Positions 27,456 through 37,831 of a DNA stretch of 64,000 nucleotides are shown piece after piece. A program made the translations under genes and the position numbers. The DNA comes from Bacteroidaceae bacterium (lineage in GTDB: Bacteria > Bacteroidota > Bacteroidia > Bacteroidales > Bacteroidaceae). Positions within the stretch are counted from its first letter, which is position 1; each line of letters begins with the position of its first letter. The stretch spans positions 1-64,000 of the forward strand of contig JAKSJD010000004.1 in assembly GCA_024398435.1 (NCBI GenBank). Reading direction: 5' to 3'. The notes beneath the pieces are model-generated. The model was not told where the DNA came from and ran no database searches. It saw only the letters and a program-made list of their open reading frames with translations.

Positions 27456-29021
27456 TTAAAGTTTTAAAACACCATTCATAGTGGTGTCTTTAAAGGTGTG
27501 CCAAATCTCAAGTTCAACCATTTTGTAATCATCAAATATTTGCTTAAGATATTCAATCTCGAATACCAAACGGAGGTCGGTCTTGTCTTCATTCTTTTGA
27601 CCTTCCTTACGATAGCCAAGGCGTGCTATCTTAATGTAATAAAGATCGCGGATACCCTTGCCTGAAAAATAAGGCATGAAGTAATAGAGTTTGTTGAGCG
27701 CAACTGTTGAAGGGAATTTTTTACCAGTATAGTAAATCTTCGCAGAGCCATCAATATATTGCTCCCAGTTGTCTTTTTTGACATTGCAAATGAGGAGATT
27801 CTTGGTGATGTCAACATCCAACAATTTCTTCTCGGAAATTTTTTCATATTCAGCCTCGTCATCCTCTCGAGCCATGAAGTTCTGAGTAATTGGACTGAGC
27901 TCATATTGGTCGAAGAGATCAAGAAAGTTGAGTTGTTTATATATCGGCCCAGATTTTTTTTCTTTTATTGGACAAAATGCCCCTTCTGGATTTTTACCCA
28001 AATATTCTTTGATTTCATCGACGTTAAGTGTACCATGAGAAACGATAGCTTTTTCAAGTTGTTTAGCGACATACCACATTAACACTGGAGGTACAGCATT
28101 TCCTATTTGTTTATAAGATTTTGGCTCTGACTCATTCAGGATAAAATTTTCAGGGAAAGATTGAATCCTTGCAGCTTCACGAGGAGTAAATCTTCTGTAT
28201 AGCTCTGATGTTGCATCTACAAGGAGAATGGGATCTCTCGAATTCATGCTTGTTTTTGCAAGATGGGAAGTAATTGTCAAACAAGGTTTAGACAAGTCTT
28301 GCCATAGTCCACGTTTCATATTATTCTTGGCATTCTTTACACCTTGAACTGCTTTTGAGGAGAAATAATATTTTTGTTCACTTATATCTAATCTGTCAAT
28401 AACAGCCCCTAATGGAATGGCTTCCGTCTCTGTACAAATAGGGATCGGATACTCATAATTGAAAACGAAATCATTACGAATACCAATTATGATAACGCGT
28501 TCCCTTCTTTGAGGTACTCCGTATTCTACTGCTTTTAGGAGCTTGAATTGCACACGATACCCACATTGACAAAATTCGCTAATTATCTTATTTATAATAT
28601 TTCCTCCCTGTAGGGTCATAAGTCCTTTAACATTCTCACATATAAAATATTTAGGATGTTTTATATTCAAGAAGCGTACTATTTGTTTATAGAGTTTTGC
28701 CCTATCATCATTTGTGTCTTTTGTTGGGTTAACAGTACTAAATGACTGACATGGGAATCCTCCTATCATAATGTCAACATCAGGGATTTGTTCAAAATCC
28801 ACTTCCGTAACATCAGCGCATACTGCCTTGTGCTTGAAATTCTTATTGTATGTGTCAACCGCCCATTTGTCGAAGTCAGCTGCATATACGATTTCAAAAG
28901 GAAGTTCTTCGTACTCTTTACCTAAGTACGTAAAACCGCCTACCATGCCAAGGTCGGAACCGCCACAACCACAAAATAAAGAAGCAACTTTCAATTTATT
29001 ACTGGGCATATCTTTCTTCAA
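27456..29021 (-). CDS. DNA C5-cytosine methyltransferase 3, with C-terminal extension
   Basis: 521 residues. Motif I SLFCGCGGSD, catalytic Cys91 in GGFPCQSFS, E129-N-V in ICENVKG, QRRER at 171 and the closing IGNAVPP at 306-312 give a complete m5C enzyme in residues 1-330. Residues 345-521 are extra and unlike the other two methyltransferases in the operon; they include YYFMPYFSGKGIRDLYYIKI and no motif I can assign. It could be a DNA-binding, modification-reading or nuclease domain. It overlaps the nuclease-like gene by 23 nt. Last gene of the operon. Confidence 0.9.
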   Translation of the reverse strand: MKKDMPSNKLKVASLFCGCGGSDLGMVGGFTYLGKEYEELPFEIVYAADFDKWAVDTYNKNFKHKAVCADVTEVDFEQIPDVDIMIGGFPCQSFSTVNPTKDTNDDRAKLYKQIVRFLNIKHPKYFICENVKGLMTLQGGNIINKIISEFCQCGYRVQFKLLKAVEYGVPQRRERVIIIGIRNDFVFNYEYPIPICTETEAIPLGAVIDRLDISEQKYYFSSKAVQGVKNAKNNMKRGLWQDLSKPCLTITSHLAKTSMNSRDPILLVDATSELYRRFTPREAARIQSFPENFILNESEPKSYKQIGNAVPPVLMWYVAKQLEKAIVSHGTLNVDEIKEYLGKNPEGAFCPIKEKKSGPIYKQLNFLDLFDQYELSPITQNFMAREDDEAEYEKISEKKLLDVDITKNLLICNVKKDNWEQYIDGSAKIYYTGKKFPSTVALNKLYYFMPYFSGKGIRDLYYIKIARLGYRKEGQKNEDKTDLRLVFEIEYLKQIFDDYKMVELEIWHTFKDTTMNGVLKL

Positions 29022-30426
29022 TTACATTTGAATCAAAATTCATTTGGTAGACAGTAGGATGAACTTCTATAATTCCATCTTTAGCCTTCTTAAATGGGTT
29101 TTGGATTCTGACTATAAACGTCTTTGTCTTGGTAAAATATACGCGATAAATATTATAGTATTCTCCATACTGTTCTGCAGCAACCCATTCTCTAGCTGTT
29201 ATATTCAGGGAATCCATCCAACCTTCATTACCAAAGTTAGGCTCGGTCACACGCTTTGTTGCTTTTACCTCAATATATCTTGCAAACTCAGGACGTGAAG
29301 GATTCTCGTCTGCCTCAATCGAAGATATATCATAGCCAAGTCCCTTTATCTTACCAAGCAAAAGTACTTTGTTAACCAAACGTTCCTTGTAATTACGAAC
29401 TCGTTCTTGTTCCAGTCTGAATACCAGTGCTTCACCTTTATCTCCAATGTCAACAGTAGATTCTGTAGCACCGCTATGAGCTTTTTGGTCTTCTCGACCG
29501 ACAACAACAATGTCTGTCAGGAAGTTAGTTTGCGTTTTAAGGAGTTCTTTGTTAAATGTACCATAACAAGCCTTCCAATCTTCCAAATAGATTATACGCT
29601 CTTCTTTTGTCGATAAAGAATAACTGTATGCATCGAACTTAAAGTTGTTGCGATTCTTGATGAATATCGCAATGGCTTCTGTTTCTTCTTTATTCAACCA
29701 AATATAAGTGGCATCCGTTTCTACGATATTGGCAAGTTCAAGCAAATTAAATTGCTCTTTAATGTGTTGCCAATCTCTCGAACCGCTAAGTATTGCTCGC
29801 TTGACTTTATTCTTGCGGTCAGCCATGATACGCTCATATACTTCCTTACAAGAAACATTGCCTTGAAGTACATCAAGATTGTTAAGTACATAGAAACCGA
29901 TTTCTTGCTTTGTCAACAATTCCTTTTCCAGCTGGCTCTGTGCATAATAAAGTAATTCAACGACATAACAGAAAGGCTTGATATGAATCTTGTTCTTCAT
30001 ATCGTCATTTACGAACTTAATCCATTTCGCACCATTTGGGAACTGGAAGTTCAAGCACAGATTCTTGAAAAACGTAGGATAGTCATTATTCTCGACCAAA
30101 TGTTTGCAAGAATTTGATTCATAGATATAAACCTTTCTATCACTATCCTCATACTGAGGATAATACAATCCCAACAAGGTTCCCGCAATTTCTGTTAAGT
30201 GGTTCTGAACTGTTTTTTGTTTATTTTCTGGCAATTCTTCGTATGTAGATGAACCACATAAAGCCTTTGAAAGAGTTCTATAGCAAGAAACCTTGAATAC
30301 TTCTTCTTCACAAGGACAATACTTATGAACCATGTTTGCATACAACGGAAGTAGGTCCTCCATGTCTGTCTGGCTTTTGCCTCTGATTATAGTACAACGG
30401 TACTGATGTTCTGGGATGTAACTCAT
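28999..30426 (-). CDS. Probable restriction endonuclease, DUF3883-type PD-(D/E)XK domain
   Basis: 475 residues. The C-terminal part carries a PD-(D/E)XK-like site: Glu331 in GDKGEALVF, Asp366 in GYDISSIE, and Glu386/Lys388 in RYIEVKATKR, followed by the Trp/Tyr-rich closing strand. This is the DUF3883 pattern. The N-terminal 300 residues (LLPLYANMVHKYCP, YYAQSQLEKELLT) resemble target-recognition parts of AlwI-like endonucleases. It overlaps the methyltransferase genes on both sides (4 and 23 nt), the expected arrangement for a nuclease kept with its protective enzymes. Confidence 0.75.
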   Translation of the reverse strand: MSYIPEHQYRCTIIRGKSQTDMEDLLPLYANMVHKYCPCEEEVFKVSCYRTLSKALCGSSTYEELPENKQKTVQNHLTEIAGTLLGLYYPQYEDSDRKVYIYESNSCKHLVENNDYPTFFKNLCLNFQFPNGAKWIKFVNDDMKNKIHIKPFCYVVELLYYAQSQLEKELLTKQEIGFYVLNNLDVLQGNVSCKEVYERIMADRKNKVKRAILSGSRDWQHIKEQFNLLELANIVETDATYIWLNKEETEAIAIFIKNRNNFKFDAYSYSLSTKEERIIYLEDWKACYGTFNKELLKTQTNFLTDIVVVGREDQKAHSGATESTVDIGDKGEALVFRLEQERVRNYKERLVNKVLLLGKIKGLGYDISSIEADENPSRPEFARYIEVKATKRVTEPNFGNEGWMDSLNITAREWVAAEQYGEYYNIYRVYFTKTKTFIVRIQNPFKKAKDGIIEVHPTVYQMNFDSNVIEERYAQ

Positions 30427-31466
30427 ATTTGTTCTTTTAAAGAGTTTGCAATTGTTTCTGCCATAATTGGTGGTACGGCATTACCAACCTGTTTTAACTG
30501 ACTTGTTTTTCCACAAAGAAAAATAAAGTCATCGGGGAACGACTGAAGTCGTGCTGATTCCCTAACGGTTGGCACTCGGTTATATTCATAGTGGAAGTGA
30601 TGATTATGTCCTGTATCAATTGTGATGCTTGGTTTTTTGCTGTTTAGACGTGTCCAAGCAATGTGCACTTTGCGTGTTTGTTGTAATTCTAACGGCAAGT
30701 CCTTATAATTCCCCCCATCAGGAACCAAAGCTATAATTCTTTGAGTTTGTTCCGTATGGACGGTAATGTCATGATTGTGCAAACATGATGTATTCTTACG
30801 CATCAATCTTTGATAATCACTCTGTGGCTCAGTTGGATATTGCCCCCCCTCCACTATGCTATATTCTGGTAAATCAGACAAAGCATCCTTTGTAGTCACA
30901 TAATCTTGTATAGTCTTTTGAGGGTACTCAAATTCTTTTCCATTGAGCATACCGACAAAAAATGCTCTTTTACGATTCTGGGGGACACCATAATCTGATG
31001 CTAACAATACTTTGTAAACTACCTTGTAACCTAAATTAGAGAAATCCCTCACGATTGCATCACTAACCATACCTTTTCCAAGTGACAATATATTGGGTAC
31101 GTTTTCGAGAACAAACGCTTTGGGTTTATAGTATTTTACCATACCTACGAAGCCTTTGTATAGTTTGTTTCGTTCATCATCGACTACTCGCTTACCTGCA
31201 ATGGAGAATCCTTGACAAGGTGGACCACCAATAATTACATCTACCTTCTGACCTTTGATTAGACTGTCAACTTCTGAGTAATCAATAGATGACAGGTCTG
31301 CACAAAGTGTTTCACTTCCTTTGTGATTATACTTGAAGGTGGTAAGGGCATCTTTCCATATATCAATGCCTAACAATATGTTATATCCAGCCTTCTCAAA
31401 ACCCAATGACAAACCTCCACAGCCACAGAACAAATCTAATACTGTATATTTTTTTTTCTTAGCCAT
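30423..31466 (-). CDS. DNA C5-cytosine methyltransferase 2
   Basis: 347 residues from MAKKKKYTV at 31466, which has a clear ribosome site (AAAGGAGAGC) unlike the ATG at 31490. Motif I LDLFCGCGGLS, catalytic Cys84 in GGPPCQGFS, ENVP at 121, QNRKR and the final VGNAVPP are all present. It modifies cytosine to 5-methylcytosine; the site is unknown. Its stop overlaps the nuclease start by 4 nt (ATGA), so the two are coupled. Confidence 0.93.
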   Translation of the reverse strand: MAKKKKYTVLDLFCGCGGLSLGFEKAGYNILLGIDIWKDALTTFKYNHKGSETLCADLSSIDYSEVDSLIKGQKVDVIIGGPPCQGFSIAGKRVVDDERNKLYKGFVGMVKYYKPKAFVLENVPNILSLGKGMVSDAIVRDFSNLGYKVVYKVLLASDYGVPQNRKRAFFVGMLNGKEFEYPQKTIQDYVTTKDALSDLPEYSIVEGGQYPTEPQSDYQRLMRKNTSCLHNHDITVHTEQTQRIIALVPDGGNYKDLPLELQQTRKVHIAWTRLNSKKPSITIDTGHNHHFHYEYNRVPTVRESARLQSFPDDFIFLCGKTSQLKQVGNAVPPIMAETIANSLKEQI

Positions 31467-31539
31467 TTGCTCTCCTTTTACATGAATCACTCTCAGATTT
31501 TTATCTCCTCACATATGTTACGTTTACCTATAAACCAAT

Positions 31540-33183
31540 TTAGGCCTGATTCAATAAACCAACAATACGAGCTTTTATGTTTTCGTAGGTTGTGTTCAAC
31601 TTATTTTTAGCAACCCTTGTTAATCTTGAGGTATGAGCAAGAGCATCTCGAATTGGCTTATATTCGCTAGCATCTTTGAACAAAGTATTATTTTTTCCCT
31701 TACCTTCTTTTCCTTCAACTAAGAAAACTAAATCGTCCATAGAGCAATACGATAAATCAGAGTCGTCCATTCTGATATTAATACTAATATTTGCCTTGTT
31801 TTTGGCTTCTTCAGCTCTCTTTCTCCAGTCTCCCAAACGTTTATTCCAATCATCAGGAAAGGGGATTCCCTTTTCTTGGATGTATTTACGCAACAAATTT
31901 TCAGAGAGAAAACATTCTCCATATGATGCAAAATTGAATTCTGCGTCATCTCTTAACTCATTAAGCCAATTATCAACTTTTTTATAACTTTCTTTATTGT
32001 CTTTTGAAGGTTTAAAGTCCTCTACAACCACATTGAAAAATTCCTGGGACTTACGCTGTTTTTTTGTTAATCGAGGATTTTCGGAATCTCCATCTTGATT
32101 GATCTCAGAACGCCAGATGTCCCAGTCATTAATAACTGTTTTTAGAAGTCCTTCCAACTCTTTCAATAAAGAGTTAAACTTTGGATCGTCCGGAACAACT
32201 CCTTCGCGACTACTTGTGAAACGATCATACTCGTCATCTAATTCATCAAAATGAATCTGACCATATAGATAGCTCTCAACGATTCGAGCCGTTGGGATAT
32301 GTCGCAAAACATCTTTTTCCCTTAATCTCCCATTTACATATAAGTCTATACTTATTTTTTCTTCAGTGCCCCTAATCTTTAAATCCGAAGGGGTTTCAAC
32401 AGATGCTAAAAATCCTTTAATTTGTTTATTGTCAATGGAAATATTTTTTGTCTTTTTGAATGCGCCGTCATTTATGTAGGGATCATCAATACCATTTATT
32501 GTCCATGCAAATTGCGTCTTCTCTTTTATTTGAGACAATTCGTCTAATGTTATAATTTCATCATTAATGAAAATATTGAAGGAAGAATCCTTAAGAGAAA
32601 AACGAAAATATAATGCCACGAGTTTGCGTATATAGTCAATCCTATTACGTATTCCGTCTTTGATACCATTAAAAATAATAAGTGTACCTCTACTACCTAG
32701 AATTGCAGAGTATTTTCTTATCGCTTGTTCTTCAAGAATGCCAAGCTTATAATCAGTGGAGCTTTTATCATCTTTTATAGCATCATCTAACCCTGAATTG
32801 TCAATAACTCCTCCAACAATGTCTGAATCCTCTTTTTTGGTGAGAATAGTTATTGTTTGAGCACAAGACAATAGAGCTAGCTTCCCGATGCCTTTTCGGC
32901 CTATATAAGGACGACCGCTTTTTGTGTGAGACACTTTGTCCTTTCGTTTGGAATAGCCAATTTTAAGGAACTTATTCTGAAAGTCCTCTTCATCCATTCC
33001 CAGCCCATCATCACGAACAAGAAGTTCCTTCTCTTCTCGATCAATAGTAATATACACATTTTGGGCATCCGCATCCCATGAATTAGATACGGCTTCACCT
33101 AATACGGTTATGAAGCTTCTATACAGATTTCTACCCAAATGATTCAGTATACTTAATGATATGTTAAAATTATATTCTTTCAT
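31540..33183 (-). CDS. GHKL (Hsp90/MutL/MORC-like) ATPase of a restriction-modification system
   Basis: 547 residues. The ATP-binding fold is at the N-terminus: Glu30 and Asn34 in GEAVSNSWDADA (N box), DDGLGMD around 58-64 (G1), and GRKGIGKLAL at 95-104 (G2 lid). The C-terminal half is charged and helical, without HNH or other nuclease signature that I can see. GHKL ATPases of the MutL/MORC type are known partners of m5C methyltransferases in bacterial restriction operons, where ATP-driven dimer closure may couple recognition to cleavage. It overlaps methyltransferase 1 by 14 nt. Confidence 0.87.
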   Translation of the reverse strand: MKEYNFNISLSILNHLGRNLYRSFITVLGEAVSNSWDADAQNVYITIDREEKELLVRDDGLGMDEEDFQNKFLKIGYSKRKDKVSHTKSGRPYIGRKGIGKLALLSCAQTITILTKKEDSDIVGGVIDNSGLDDAIKDDKSSTDYKLGILEEQAIRKYSAILGSRGTLIIFNGIKDGIRNRIDYIRKLVALYFRFSLKDSSFNIFINDEIITLDELSQIKEKTQFAWTINGIDDPYINDGAFKKTKNISIDNKQIKGFLASVETPSDLKIRGTEEKISIDLYVNGRLREKDVLRHIPTARIVESYLYGQIHFDELDDEYDRFTSSREGVVPDDPKFNSLLKELEGLLKTVINDWDIWRSEINQDGDSENPRLTKKQRKSQEFFNVVVEDFKPSKDNKESYKKVDNWLNELRDDAEFNFASYGECFLSENLLRKYIQEKGIPFPDDWNKRLGDWRKRAEEAKNKANISINIRMDDSDLSYCSMDDLVFLVEGKEGKGKNNTLFKDASEYKPIRDALAHTSRLTRVAKNKLNTTYENIKARIVGLLNQA

Positions 33184-34309
33184 ATGGTGTATATTTTATA
33201 TGAATTTTGATACTTTCTGCAATTACTGCTCCCAATTTTGGAGGTACCGCATTTCCAATATAGCGTGATGCTTTGGACAGAGAAACCTCTTGCTCATTGG
33301 GAAAGAACTTGTATGAAACAGGGAATGTTTGGAACATAGCTGCCTCTCGTGCTGAAATTGCCCTGTTCTGTTCTGGATGCCCAAAACGGCCATTGCCAAT
33401 CCCTGTGCATAGGGTTGTCATCGTTGGAGCAGGTTCTTCCCATACCATACGCCCGTAAACACTACCGAAACTTTTACCGCTTTCTTTCTTGTGACAATCT
33501 AAGAGCAATTCTTCCGGCCAGTCTTTCCAGCTTCCTCCATATGGCGTTGCTAACATTCTACGCATATTTAAAGGAGACAACTCTCGGCTGCGATGTAATG
33601 GATCCGAAGGACAAGTTCCGCCAGCTAATATCGGTGGAAGATTGCTAATAACATCTCGTACAGTAACATAGTGATCTTTGGTGTGAGTGGGAGGAATTAG
33701 CTCAATCTTTCCGAATCTTGAAGCCAACAGCACCAAGCGCCTACGAGTCTGCGGTATCCCATAATTAGGACAATATACGACTTTGTATCCTACATTATAA
33801 CCTTCTTCCTTCAACACCTTCACGAAATCTGCCAAAACAGACTTTAACTTAAATGAAGCAATGGCAGGAACGTTCTCCATTGTTACGATATCCGGATGTA
33901 CCTCTTTTACCAAGCGCCCGAATTCGTACAATAAGTTGTATTTGTCCTTATCTTTGTTCTTATTCTTAAATGCATACGAAGAGAAAGGTTGACATGGTGC
34001 ACATCCTGCTAAAACCCTTATAGATTTTTTAGAATATAAGGGACTGATGTCTTCCTTGGTAACTTGTCGGATATCTTTATAATTAAATTTTGCTTCATTA
34101 TTTGTTTCGTAAGCATATTGACAAGTCGAATCCAAATCAAAGCCAGCTAATATTTTGAATCCTGCAGACTTCATTCCATAACTAAGCCCACCTATTCCAC
34201 AGAATAAGTCAACCACTTCTATGGCTGGTAGCCTTCCACGTCTTTTATGTACTTTACCTTGAGTCATATCTGTTCTCTGTTCCTCGTAAGATTCAATGGA
34301 TGGGTACAT
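33170..34309 (-). CDS. DNA C5-cytosine methyltransferase 1
   Basis: 379 residues. Motif I VVDLFCGIGGLS, catalytic Cys106 in GCAPCQPFSS, E145-N-V-P, QTRRR at 187 and IGNAVPP at 351-357. First gene of the operon. The first 14 residues (before MTQGKVHKRRG, ATG at 34267) are encoded by DNA that matches the REP-like element in about 19 of 25 positions, so the real start may be 34267. Between QTRRR and the closing motif lies a target-recognition region of about 110 residues that differs from those of methyltransferases 2 and 3. Confidence 0.92.
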   Translation of the reverse strand: MYPSIESYEEQRTDMTQGKVHKRRGRLPAIEVVDLFCGIGGLSYGMKSAGFKILAGFDLDSTCQYAYETNNEAKFNYKDIRQVTKEDISPLYSKKSIRVLAGCAPCQPFSSYAFKNKNKDKDKYNLLYEFGRLVKEVHPDIVTMENVPAIASFKLKSVLADFVKVLKEEGYNVGYKVVYCPNYGIPQTRRRLVLLASRFGKIELIPPTHTKDHYVTVRDVISNLPPILAGGTCPSDPLHRSRELSPLNMRRMLATPYGGSWKDWPEELLLDCHKKESGKSFGSVYGRMVWEEPAPTMTTLCTGIGNGRFGHPEQNRAISAREAAMFQTFPVSYKFFPNEQEVSLSKASRYIGNAVPPKLGAVIAESIKIHIKYTPYERI

Positions 34310-35151: not shown

Positions 35152-35308
35152 CAGTCGGTTGGTAGAGTTTAATTCAGTTCACGATTATCGGTTATCGGTT
35201 CACAGTTAATTATATGCTGGATACATAGTGGAGAGATTATAGTAGAAAGTGGAAAAGTGCAAGAGTGTAAGAGTGTATTGCAGTGCAGCACCTTGCAACA
35301 CGGAACTA

Positions 35309-35461
35309 AAAACATTATAAGAAATGGGGCAAAACATTATAAGGAATGACCCAAAACATTATAAGAAATGACCGTAAACATTATAAGGAACAGACCGATT
35401 TCTTATAAGGTTATCGACTTGTCGCTTGGTTTATCCAAGAATGAGGCAAAACATTATAAGG
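35309..35461. repeat. Modular repeat locus E1: 22-bp units plus one 30-bp-type unit
   Basis: Four exact-length 22-bp units (35309-35396) of the form AAAACATTATAAGRAATGRCCC, with a TTATAA core. Then a unit of the 30-bp type (about 35411-35442, TTATCGAC..GTCGCTTGG..CCAAG) and a further AAAACATTATAAG. Confidence 0.9.
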
Positions 35462-35541
35462 TTTTTTGGTCGGCAAAGCGGTATCAGGATTCTTGCATTT
35501 TGGATGCTCCAATATGAGCGTTTTTGCGTGAAGCAATTCAG

Positions 35542-35947: not shown

Positions 35948-37831
35948 ATGAGAAAAAAACTTTTATCTCTCGCCCTCATGGCACTCGTGGCTTGCAGTGC
36001 TTGGGCACAGTCTCCCAACAGTGACTACCTCTGCTTCACAGCAAACACAGCGGGTTCAACGGTTGAATTGGTTAAGAATGGCGATGCATGTGATGTCGTC
36101 ATTCAATTCAGTACCAATCATGGTGATTCTTGGCAAACCGTTGACTTTTCAATAGAAACAACAACTGGTGTAATCCTACTTAACGATGCAGGTGACAAGG
36201 TCTATTTCCGCAATGCTGCCGATGAAGTGGCAACTGGATTCTCGCTAAACAGCAATAGTTATTACCAGTTTAAAATGTCTGGCAACATAGCTGCCAGCGG
36301 AAATGTGATGTCGCTTATTGACAAGAGATGCGGGGCAACTACCATACCTTGTGCAGGTTGTTTCTGTTGTTTGTTCTATGAGTGTCAAAGTCTGATATCT
36401 GCTCCCGAACTGCCTGCAACGACTTTGACAGACTATTGCTATGGCAGCATGTTCTGCAAATGCCCAAATCTGAGAACTGCTCCCGAACTGCCTGCAACGA
36501 CTTTGACAGATAATTGCTATGGCAGCATGTTCCATAGTTGTACAAGTCTGAAATCTGCTCCAAATCTGCCTGCAATGACATTGGCAAATAATTGCTGTCA
36601 GTACATGTTCAAAGATTGTATAAATCTGGAATCTGCTCCAAATATGCCAGCAATGACATTGGCAACAAAGTGCTATTTATACATGTTCGCTGGTTGTACA
36701 AATCTGAAATCCGCTCCTAAGTTGCCTGCAACGACATTGGCAGACTATTGCTATCAGTATATGTTCGAAGGTTGTACGGGTCTGAAATCTGCTCCCGAAC
36801 TGCCTGCGACGACTTTGAAAACAAGGTGCTATCAATACATGTTCAGCGGCTGTACGGGTCTGACATCCGCTCCCGAACTGCCTGCAACAACTTTGGCAAC
36901 GGCAACTTACTGCTATTCAAACATGTTCGAAGGTTGTACGGGTCTGACATCTGCTCCCGAACTGCCTGCAACGACTTTGGCAAATTATTGCTATCAGTAC
37001 ATGTTCAAAGGTTGTACGGGTCTGAAAACTGCTCCCGAACTGCCTGCAACGACTTTGAAAACAAGGTGCTATTATTACATGTTACAAGATTGTACAAGTC
37101 TGAACAATATCAGTGTTGTTGCTGTTAATGCTACTAATTCAAAGGACTGGGTTAAAGGTGTTTCTTCTTCTGGCACATTCGCATGTCCAAGTACGGTAAC
37201 AACGACTTCTCCTGGCACTTCAGCAAATCCTGTTGGCTGGACAGTCAAAAACTCCTACGACCTCACTATCACTGACGCTGGTTGGGCTTCAATGTGCGTA
37301 AACCTGCCATTGCAGGTTCCTACGGGTGTGGAAGTATATTATGCAAGTGCAGTGGACGGAAGCACAATCACCTTGACTCAGATAGAGGCAGGTACAAAGA
37401 TTGCCACAAAGACAGCAGTACTCGTAAAGGGTACAGGCACAGTGTCATTCCCAATCATGGGCGAAGCAGGTACGGCATACACCGACAACCTCTTCGTAGG
37501 AACATCTGTCGACAAGGCCTTCAATGCAGATAAGAATGGCGCTGTATATGTACTCTCTCAAGTTGACTCTACAGGCAAACCATTGTTCCAGAACTACGTA
37601 GGCACAACTCTCGGCGCTCATAAGATTTGGTTGCCAGCCAGTGCAGTAGGCGACAGCAACGTGAAGGAACTCCACTTCGTATTCGACAGCGAGAAGACTA
37701 CAGGAATCAACGTTATCGAACGCTCTGACAACTCCGGCAACGGCATGATGTACAACCTCAACGGTATGCGCGTCGATGGCAACTACAAGGGTATCGTGAT
37801 TATGAACGGGAAAAAGGTTTACAACAAATAA
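35948..37831 (+). CDS. Secreted repeat protein (DUF285/BspA-like) with YNLxGxRV tail
   Basis: 627 residues; signal peptide ending WA-QSP (residue 21). Residues 149-385 hold nine tandem repeats of about 24 residues, consensus LxSAPELPATTLxxxCYxYMFxGCT, each with conserved Cys, Tyr and Met-Phe. One copy has a 2-residue insertion. They look like the cysteine-containing DUF285/leucine-rich-like repeats of Bacteroidales surface proteins, probably for binding. A beta-sandwich region follows, then the tail MMYNLNGMRVDGNYKG. The small peptide gene starts 18 nt downstream. Confidence 0.85.
   Translation: MRKKLLSLALMALVACSAWAQSPNSDYLCFTANTAGSTVELVKNGDACDVVIQFSTNHGDSWQTVDFSIETTTGVILLNDAGDKVYFRNAADEVATGFSLNSNSYYQFKMSGNIAASGNVMSLIDKRCGATTIPCAGCFCCLFYECQSLISAPELPATTLTDYCYGSMFCKCPNLRTAPELPATTLTDNCYGSMFHSCTSLKSAPNLPAMTLANNCCQYMFKDCINLESAPNMPAMTLATKCYLYMFAGCTNLKSAPKLPATTLADYCYQYMFEGCTGLKSAPELPATTLKTRCYQYMFSGCTGLTSAPELPATTLATATYCYSNMFEGCTGLTSAPELPATTLANYCYQYMFKGCTGLKTAPELPATTLKTRCYYYMLQDCTSLNNISVVAVNATNSKDWVKGVSSSGTFACPSTVTTTSPGTSANPVGWTVKNSYDLTITDAGWASMCVNLPLQVPTGVEVYYASAVDGSTITLTQIEAGTKIATKTAVLVKGTGTVSFPIMGEAGTAYTDNLFVGTSVDKAFNADKNGAVYVLSQVDSTGKPLFQNYVGTTLGAHKIWLPASAVGDSNVKELHFVFDSEKTTGINVIERSDNSGNGMMYNLNGMRVDGNYKGIVIMNGKKVYNK

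Follow-up and report, generated by a model that had tools for sequence, protein, structure and literature searches.

According to excerpts of the relevant papers, from which all citations here are taken, the 5-methylcytosine (m5C) methyltransferase M.HgiDII acts on GTCGAC (PMC5867850), Iyer and colleagues placed the paraMORC group of ATPases in restriction–modification (R-M) operons (PMC2292703) and a 2013 study pointed out fusions of HEPN with paraMORC at restriction loci (PMC3710099). For one of these, Ymh-HEPN fused to paraMORC, Anantharaman and colleagues proposed a suicidal role like that of PrrC/RloC (PMC3710099). Here we analyse a 64,000-nucleotide (nt) stretch of a Bacteroidaceae genome (GCA_024398435.1, contig JAKSJD010000004.1, positions 1 to 64,000; hereafter the window), whose list of open reading frames (ORFs) contains an operon of five intact minus-strand genes: methyltransferase 1 (MT1), ATPase, MT2, nuclease and MT3, in this order (Table 1). 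The operon is almost certainly two separate, independent self/non-self modules in tandem, A (MT1 and ATPase) and B (MT2, nuclease and MT3). Module A is a paraMORC-linked R-M system with a probable HEPN effector, a new tail variant within a class of fusions already known since 2013.

The division into modules comes from the neighbours of ATPase relatives at 84 loci, comprising the best 80 of 144 from one-genome-per-species contigs and four from viral contigs, of which L134 and L135 seem to be duplicates. Four records among the 80 coincide with G229, G209, G048 and G098 from a search of the window's order. Flanks of up to 8 kb were examined, shorter at contig ends. A relative of MT1 (at least 45% identity) lies directly upstream of the ATPase gene on the same strand at 78 of the 84 loci, takes another orientation at two and is absent from four; the module B nuclease was found in the flanks of none. 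Reciprocally, neither the ATPase nor a separate MT1 occurs at any of seven loci around nuclease relatives (L235–L241, with H51 and L053 left out of this reading). MT2- and MT3-like genes flank the nuclease as in the window at five of these (L235 and L238–L241), the MT2-like gene of L238 being truncated where the contig ends. No m5C gene lies in the sequence around the nuclease relative at L236 or L237, and the nuclease ORF of L237 is shortened. Because each module occurs without the other, the window brings together two systems found separately in other genomes. An earlier model reading, made from the letters alone (the sequence-only reading), had offered exactly this split as one of two options, and its remark that three m5C enzymes for one nuclease would be unusual dissolves: two fit a nuclease with an asymmetric site and one belongs to the ATPase.

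Downstream of the module A pair, 12 Bacteroidales relatives carry differing genes, several with another methyltransferase or Vsr. At L054–L064 this position holds changing cassettes of other m5C genes, Vsr genes and unassigned ORFs, and restriction genes seem to settle there preferentially.

The N-terminal part of the ATPase contains the GHKL boxes that had been noted earlier (GEAVSNSWDADA at residue 29, DDGLGM at 58 and GRKGIGK at 95), and E30, N34, D59, G60, G62, G98, G100 and K101 are kept in 85 of 85 ATPase sequences. These motifs, an S5-like second domain and a methyltransferase-bearing R-M neighbourhood (78/84 loci) place the protein among the paraMORC/GHKL-S5 ATPases. An AlphaFold model (mean predicted local distance difference test score 85.2) is closest to MORC2, its best Foldseek match (4.9e-13), and TRAP1, with MORC3 and MORC4 also retrieved, in line with the paraMORC group. 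The sequence-only reading had recognised this head and treated the protein as an accessory, missing that the C terminus looks like an effector of the ATPase's own.

This C-terminal tail probably adopts a HEPN fold. R512, H517 and T518 are invariant in 85/85 sequences, residues 511 and 514–516 vary, and the R512-x4-H517 spacing agrees throughout with the R-x4-6-H motif by which HEPN domains are defined (PMC3710099). The full set of invariant tail residues comprises G365, R377, C424, E428, N429, R432, R471, M482, L485, R512, H517, T518, L529 and N535. Pfam, PADLOC and NCBIfam assign the tail no family name, HEPN sequence families do not match it at E ≤ 1, and HEPN_Swt1 matches two of 80 tail relatives (best 0.013). 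A tail profile searched against PDB sequences returned six chance-level chains, none of them HEPN, profile comparison with the MAE_28990 HEPN set gave a probability of 1.3%, and a search of the viral model library returned nothing. The HEPN superfamily is poorly conserved in sequence. Foldseek comparison of the tail with the PDB gave no match at E ≤ 0.001; the ranked chains include Csm6 (6tug, rank 2, E 1.8), SO_3166 (5yep, rank 10) and HepT (6m6w, rank 21).

Our main argument for reading the tail as an effector is that DNase, TIR or HEPN domains occupy the effector place beside the MT1 family. Two relatives (L034 and L156) adjoin full-length BbrUII/HgiDII proteins, scoring 751 and 729 bits against NF050001 (cut-off 550). 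Two others, L042 (whose MT1 shares 67% identity with that of the window) and L222, have SpbK-like tails according to PADLOC; Pfam makes no TIR call on the L042 tail, and its TIR label comes from the PADLOC match, SpbK being a TIR protein. L150, L151 and L152 carry HEPN_MAE_28990, and L044 encodes a GHKL protein with a Ymh-HEPN tail (PF09509, 1.4e-23). Among the best 80 of at least 510 MT1-relative loci on viral contigs (70 distinct methyltransferases after dereplication), the neighbours are GmrSD_N plus a MAE_28990-type HEPN protein at 39, a GHKL protein with a restriction endonuclease tail at 25, the window type at two, GHKL–TIR at one and GHKL with an unassigned tail at one, nothing being recognised at 12.

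In a FastTree phylogeny of MT1-type proteins (102 of 140, with about half of the window-type rows dropped and a midpoint root used for drawing only), at least 18 effector changes are needed; starred branches force 6, 6, 8 and 2 for the four classes, and the effector labels are still clustered relative to shuffles. Residues 206–300 of MT1, its variable recognition stretch, have class-mean similarities to the window's of 0.55–0.59, against 0.53–0.60 for the whole protein. Because this stretch is as similar as the whole protein in every class, a largely constant marking enzyme is combined with changing effectors. As a guess, MT1 might target GTCGAC, on the grounds that the ATPase head is related to HgiDII and not by comparison of MT1 with M.HgiDII.

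As a separate observation, L150–L152, L155 and most HEPN_MAE loci share a three-gene set of an MT1-family gene, a GmrSD_N protein and a MAE_28990 HEPN protein, which is common in viral and prophage contigs (the 39 of 80 above). Operons of this composition are mentioned in Table 1 of PMC3710099.

In the working that we propose for module A, MT1 would, as its family suggests, methylate its own sites on host DNA, marking it as self. By analogy with MORC and MutL, the GHKL-S5 head would bind ATP and dimerise around DNA, and unmethylated sites on incoming DNA would trigger the ATPase as with HgiDII-type enzymes. Head closure would activate paired HEPN domains through R512/H517; going by the R-x4-H motif and the fold, these would cut RNA, not DNA. 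Translation would stop and the infected cell would abort phage production, making the module a self-sacrifice alarm and not a classical restriction enzyme. The RNA-cutting idea has a precedent in the PrrC/RloC-like role proposed for Ymh-HEPN–paraMORC (PMC3710099). With a probability of about 0.55, the best explanation of the whole is two tandem modules, a BpuJI-type module B and a module A that works as proposed here, with HgiDII/BbrUII-like self-marking and a HEPN-like domain in place of the DNA-cutting tail. We would give even odds to a methylation-gated ribonuclease as such. A shade less secure is the fullest proposal, a widespread two-gene system that couples R-M self-marking to a HEPN ribonuclease, with unmethylated DNA as alarm, a MORC-like ATP clamp as sensor and RNA as target, forming one branch of a plug-and-play family whose shared methyltransferase and GHKL head would take DNase, TIR or HEPN effectors.

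NF050001, the BbrUII/HgiDII model, matches ATPase residues 4–372 at 287.3 bits over model positions 1–376 of 659, and PADLOC models of type II restriction endonucleases match residues 4–366 (3e-37). This kinship, and the service of MT1 relatives to true HgiDII-type enzymes, would suit an HgiDII-like restriction enzyme with a DNA-binding or structural tail, in which unmethylated DNA is cut at the site of MT1 by the protein or by a nuclease site that has escaped notice. However, the whole-model match failed and the score falls below the equivalog cut-off of 550 bits, nothing is matched past residue 372, the tail alone has no PADLOC family and its invariant residues show no D-ExK pattern. We consider this rival unlikely, though it survives best.

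Slightly less likely again is a MutL-like matchmaker, in which the ATPase would pass DNA on for nicking by another enzyme, either Vsr or a nuclease of the host, and the tail would bind nucleic acid or protein. Iyer and colleagues described nucleases of the Vsr family from MORC operons and drew the analogy with MutL (PMC2292703). At 83 loci with flanks read for Vsr, the gene lies directly downstream of the ATPase at 27 and within the flanks at 37, and three of the Vsr genes were checked (PF03852, 3.9e-18 to 2.6e-32). That Vsr could be a DNA-nicking partner is a complication. Yet the flanks examined contain no Vsr at 46 of the 83 loci (77 of the 83 have at least 600 nt beyond the ATPase gene), and the window's operon has none, the genome's Vsr gene lying elsewhere. 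Vsr beside an m5C methyltransferase serves the repair of deaminated m5C, as in the textbook Dcm/Vsr pair, which explains its presence without a matchmaker. We read Vsr near module A in this way, a reading that fits an active m5C enzyme.

The module A pair also occurs on plasmids of Paracoccus and Celeribacter, which would agree with a toxin–antitoxin-like addiction system in which the HEPN tail would kill cells post-segregationally unless MT1 protects them, phage defence being secondary. On Celeribacter indicus plasmid pP73D (L033, 7675–11092), an IS1380 transposase gene interrupts the ATPase gene but not the methyltransferase gene, which is what a costly effector would lead one to expect. Against addiction, for which we see little chance, most of the loci examined are chromosomal or on metagenome contigs; its molecular working would be the same as that of the HEPN effector system proposed above. 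The other option of the sequence-only reading, a single five-gene system in which cleavage by the BpuJI-like nuclease depends on ATP through the ATPase and three methyltransferases protect, would suit the shared strand, tight spacing and one probable transcript, but it is rejected as highly improbable since the modules occur apart (nuclease at 0/84 ATPase loci, no ATPase at 7/7 nuclease loci), a type II restriction endonuclease model that lacks an ATPase covers BpuJI_N and NOV_C end to end, and the 12 Bacteroidales loci have other genes after the module A pair.

On its sequence, module B is a BpuJI-like type IIS R-M system, an ordinary and known kind. Its recognition domain would bind a short asymmetric site, its NOV_C domain would cut DNA and its two m5C methyltransferases would protect one strand each. 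Two m5C enzymes for one asymmetric site are ordinary type IIS logic, and BpuJI recognises CCCGT. The likeness to BpuJI lies in the recognition region, the asymmetric-site logic and the two m5C enzymes, the PDB comparison (2vla) covering the recognition part only. The PADLOC model REase_II PDLC03432 matches residues 1–468 of 475 (4e-100). A DUF3883-type nuclease with an E-D-ExK site had been predicted, and both hold (NOV_C, 3e-10), with two amendments: the first 280 residues, left unnamed, are the BpuJI recognition part, and the first site residue is E332, not E331. E332, D366, E386 and K388 are invariant in six aligned nuclease sequences, down to 24% identity.

Nuclease relatives occur in seven of 294 other genomes of the window's order, one by its C-terminal region only, and also on an Acinetobacter plasmid. 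At five of the seven loci L235–L241 the nuclease relative has an MT2 relative upstream (49–67% identical, one cut by a contig end), and at five an MT3 relative downstream (42–64%). MT3 bears a C-terminal extension of about 190 residues (329–521; 27456–28037) with no Pfam or PDB match. Among 243 loci it recurs only beside the module A pair of a Salinivirgaceae genome (L037/L054), where a different methyltransferase that adjoins the ATPase gene carries it (51.5% over 130 residues).

Table 1. Coordinates of the operon genes and of the regions discussed, with the evidence for each.
Feature	Positions	Strand	Evidence
MT1, m5C methyltransferase, module A	33170..34309	-	PF00145 209 bits
ATPase, module A, 547 aa: paraMORC-type GHKL-S5 head and helical C-terminal domain	31540..33183	-	HATPase_c_3 1.4e-21
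GHKL-S5 head, about residues 1-333	32185..33183	-	HATPase_c_3, NF050001, AlphaFold, Foldseek
HEPN-like all-helical C-terminal domain, residues 362-547, proposed effector	31540..32100	-	
R512-x4-H517-T518 motif (RDALAHT), proposed HEPN active site, end of penultimate helix	31630..31650	-	
MT2, m5C methyltransferase, module B	30423..31490	-	PF00145 256 bits
Nuclease, module B: BpuJI-type recognition part and NOV_C (DUF3883) E-D-ExK nuclease part	28999..30426	-	PF11564, PF13020
BpuJI_N DNA-recognition region, residues 6-284	29575..30411	-	PF11564 1.5e-55; PDB 2vla 1.4e-54
NOV_C nuclease region, residues 331-436	29119..29436	-	PF13020 3e-10; invariant E332, D366, E386, K388
MT3, m5C methyltransferase, module B, unusual C-terminal extension	27456..29021	-	PF00145 254 bits

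The earlier description of the genes proved largely accurate. All three m5C methyltransferases are intact, each with PCQ, ENV and GNAVPP and with 209–256 bits against a PF00145 cut-off of 22, and the assembly (77.6% complete) has no further PF00145 match. The ORFs confirm one strand for the five genes, and MT1 overlaps the ATPase gene by 14 nt and MT2 the nuclease gene by 4 nt, as described. The 73-nt gap between the ATPase and MT2 is given by the better MT2 start, ATG 31466, which is preceded by AAAGGAGAG and is the likely one; the nuclease and MT3 genes overlap by 23 nt if MT3 starts at a TTG, but by 11 nt from ATG 29009, the likely MT3 start. MT1 likely starts at ATG 34267, which in sequence comparison matches the N termini of its relatives. 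The operon has a GC content of 37.3%, against 44.8% for the remaining window. Upstream of it, an AT-rich non-coding stretch (about 35300–35470) contains several near-copies of TTATAATGTTTTG(C/G)(C/G)TCATT-like text, and a large ORF (35948–37831) with repeated 'LPATTLADYCYQYMFEGCTGLKSAPE' units appears by eye to encode a BspA-like leucine-rich surface protein.

The 80 genome loci of the module A ATPase span 23 named phylum labels and five unranked ones (77 loci bacterial, three archaeal); within the window's order, an essentially whole-length match was found in five of 295 genomes, the window's own included. Of the four ATPase loci that lack MT1, two (L093 and L113) have an upstream ORF that begins ...RPSQLLWTYGPGALIDLPNLSVITMGLDRW and is putatively DISARM DrmB-like; the ATPase may have been recruited there too.

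If the proposal for module A is true, many loci filed as type II restriction enzymes on the strength of a methyltransferase and a GHKL head would be methylation-gated suicide switches, and DNA methylation would serve as the guard of abortive infection. The reach would be broad, with 23 phylum labels, archaea included, and both active sites kept in 85/85 sequences. The long-standing question of what prokaryotic MORC-type ATPases sense, and how the signal reaches the effector, would become testable, with a bearing on eukaryotic MORC and sacsin-like proteins that have related heads.

We found no description of a window-type HEPN–paraMORC pair in the open-licence literature, a scope that subscription papers and preprints fall outside and in which PMC13092281 was available in part. 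The closest systems differ from module A in the tail. In HgiDII/BbrUII, too, an m5C methyltransferase adjoins a GHKL-S5 protein; the window's head matches their model and MT1 relatives stand beside full-length members, but the window protein has a helical HEPN-like tail in place of their nuclease. ParaMORC families 1–5 share the GHKL and S5 head, the R-M neighbourhood and family-specific C-terminal domains (a restriction endonuclease fold in paraMORC3, TIR in paraMORC4), whereas none of the five tails that the excerpted text describes is HEPN-like, as the window's is (PMC2292703). Ymh-HEPN–paraMORC has the same design, with HEPN at the paraMORC C terminus and adjoining methyltransferases (PMC3710099). 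The window tail, unlike that of L044, has no PF09509 match and is therefore of a different family from Ymh. In VcSduA and GHKL-type Shedu, a GHKL head likewise regulates a C-terminal anti-phage effector, but that effector is a PD-(D/E)XK nuclease, and restriction is reported to be direct, with survival of the host (PMC12137116).

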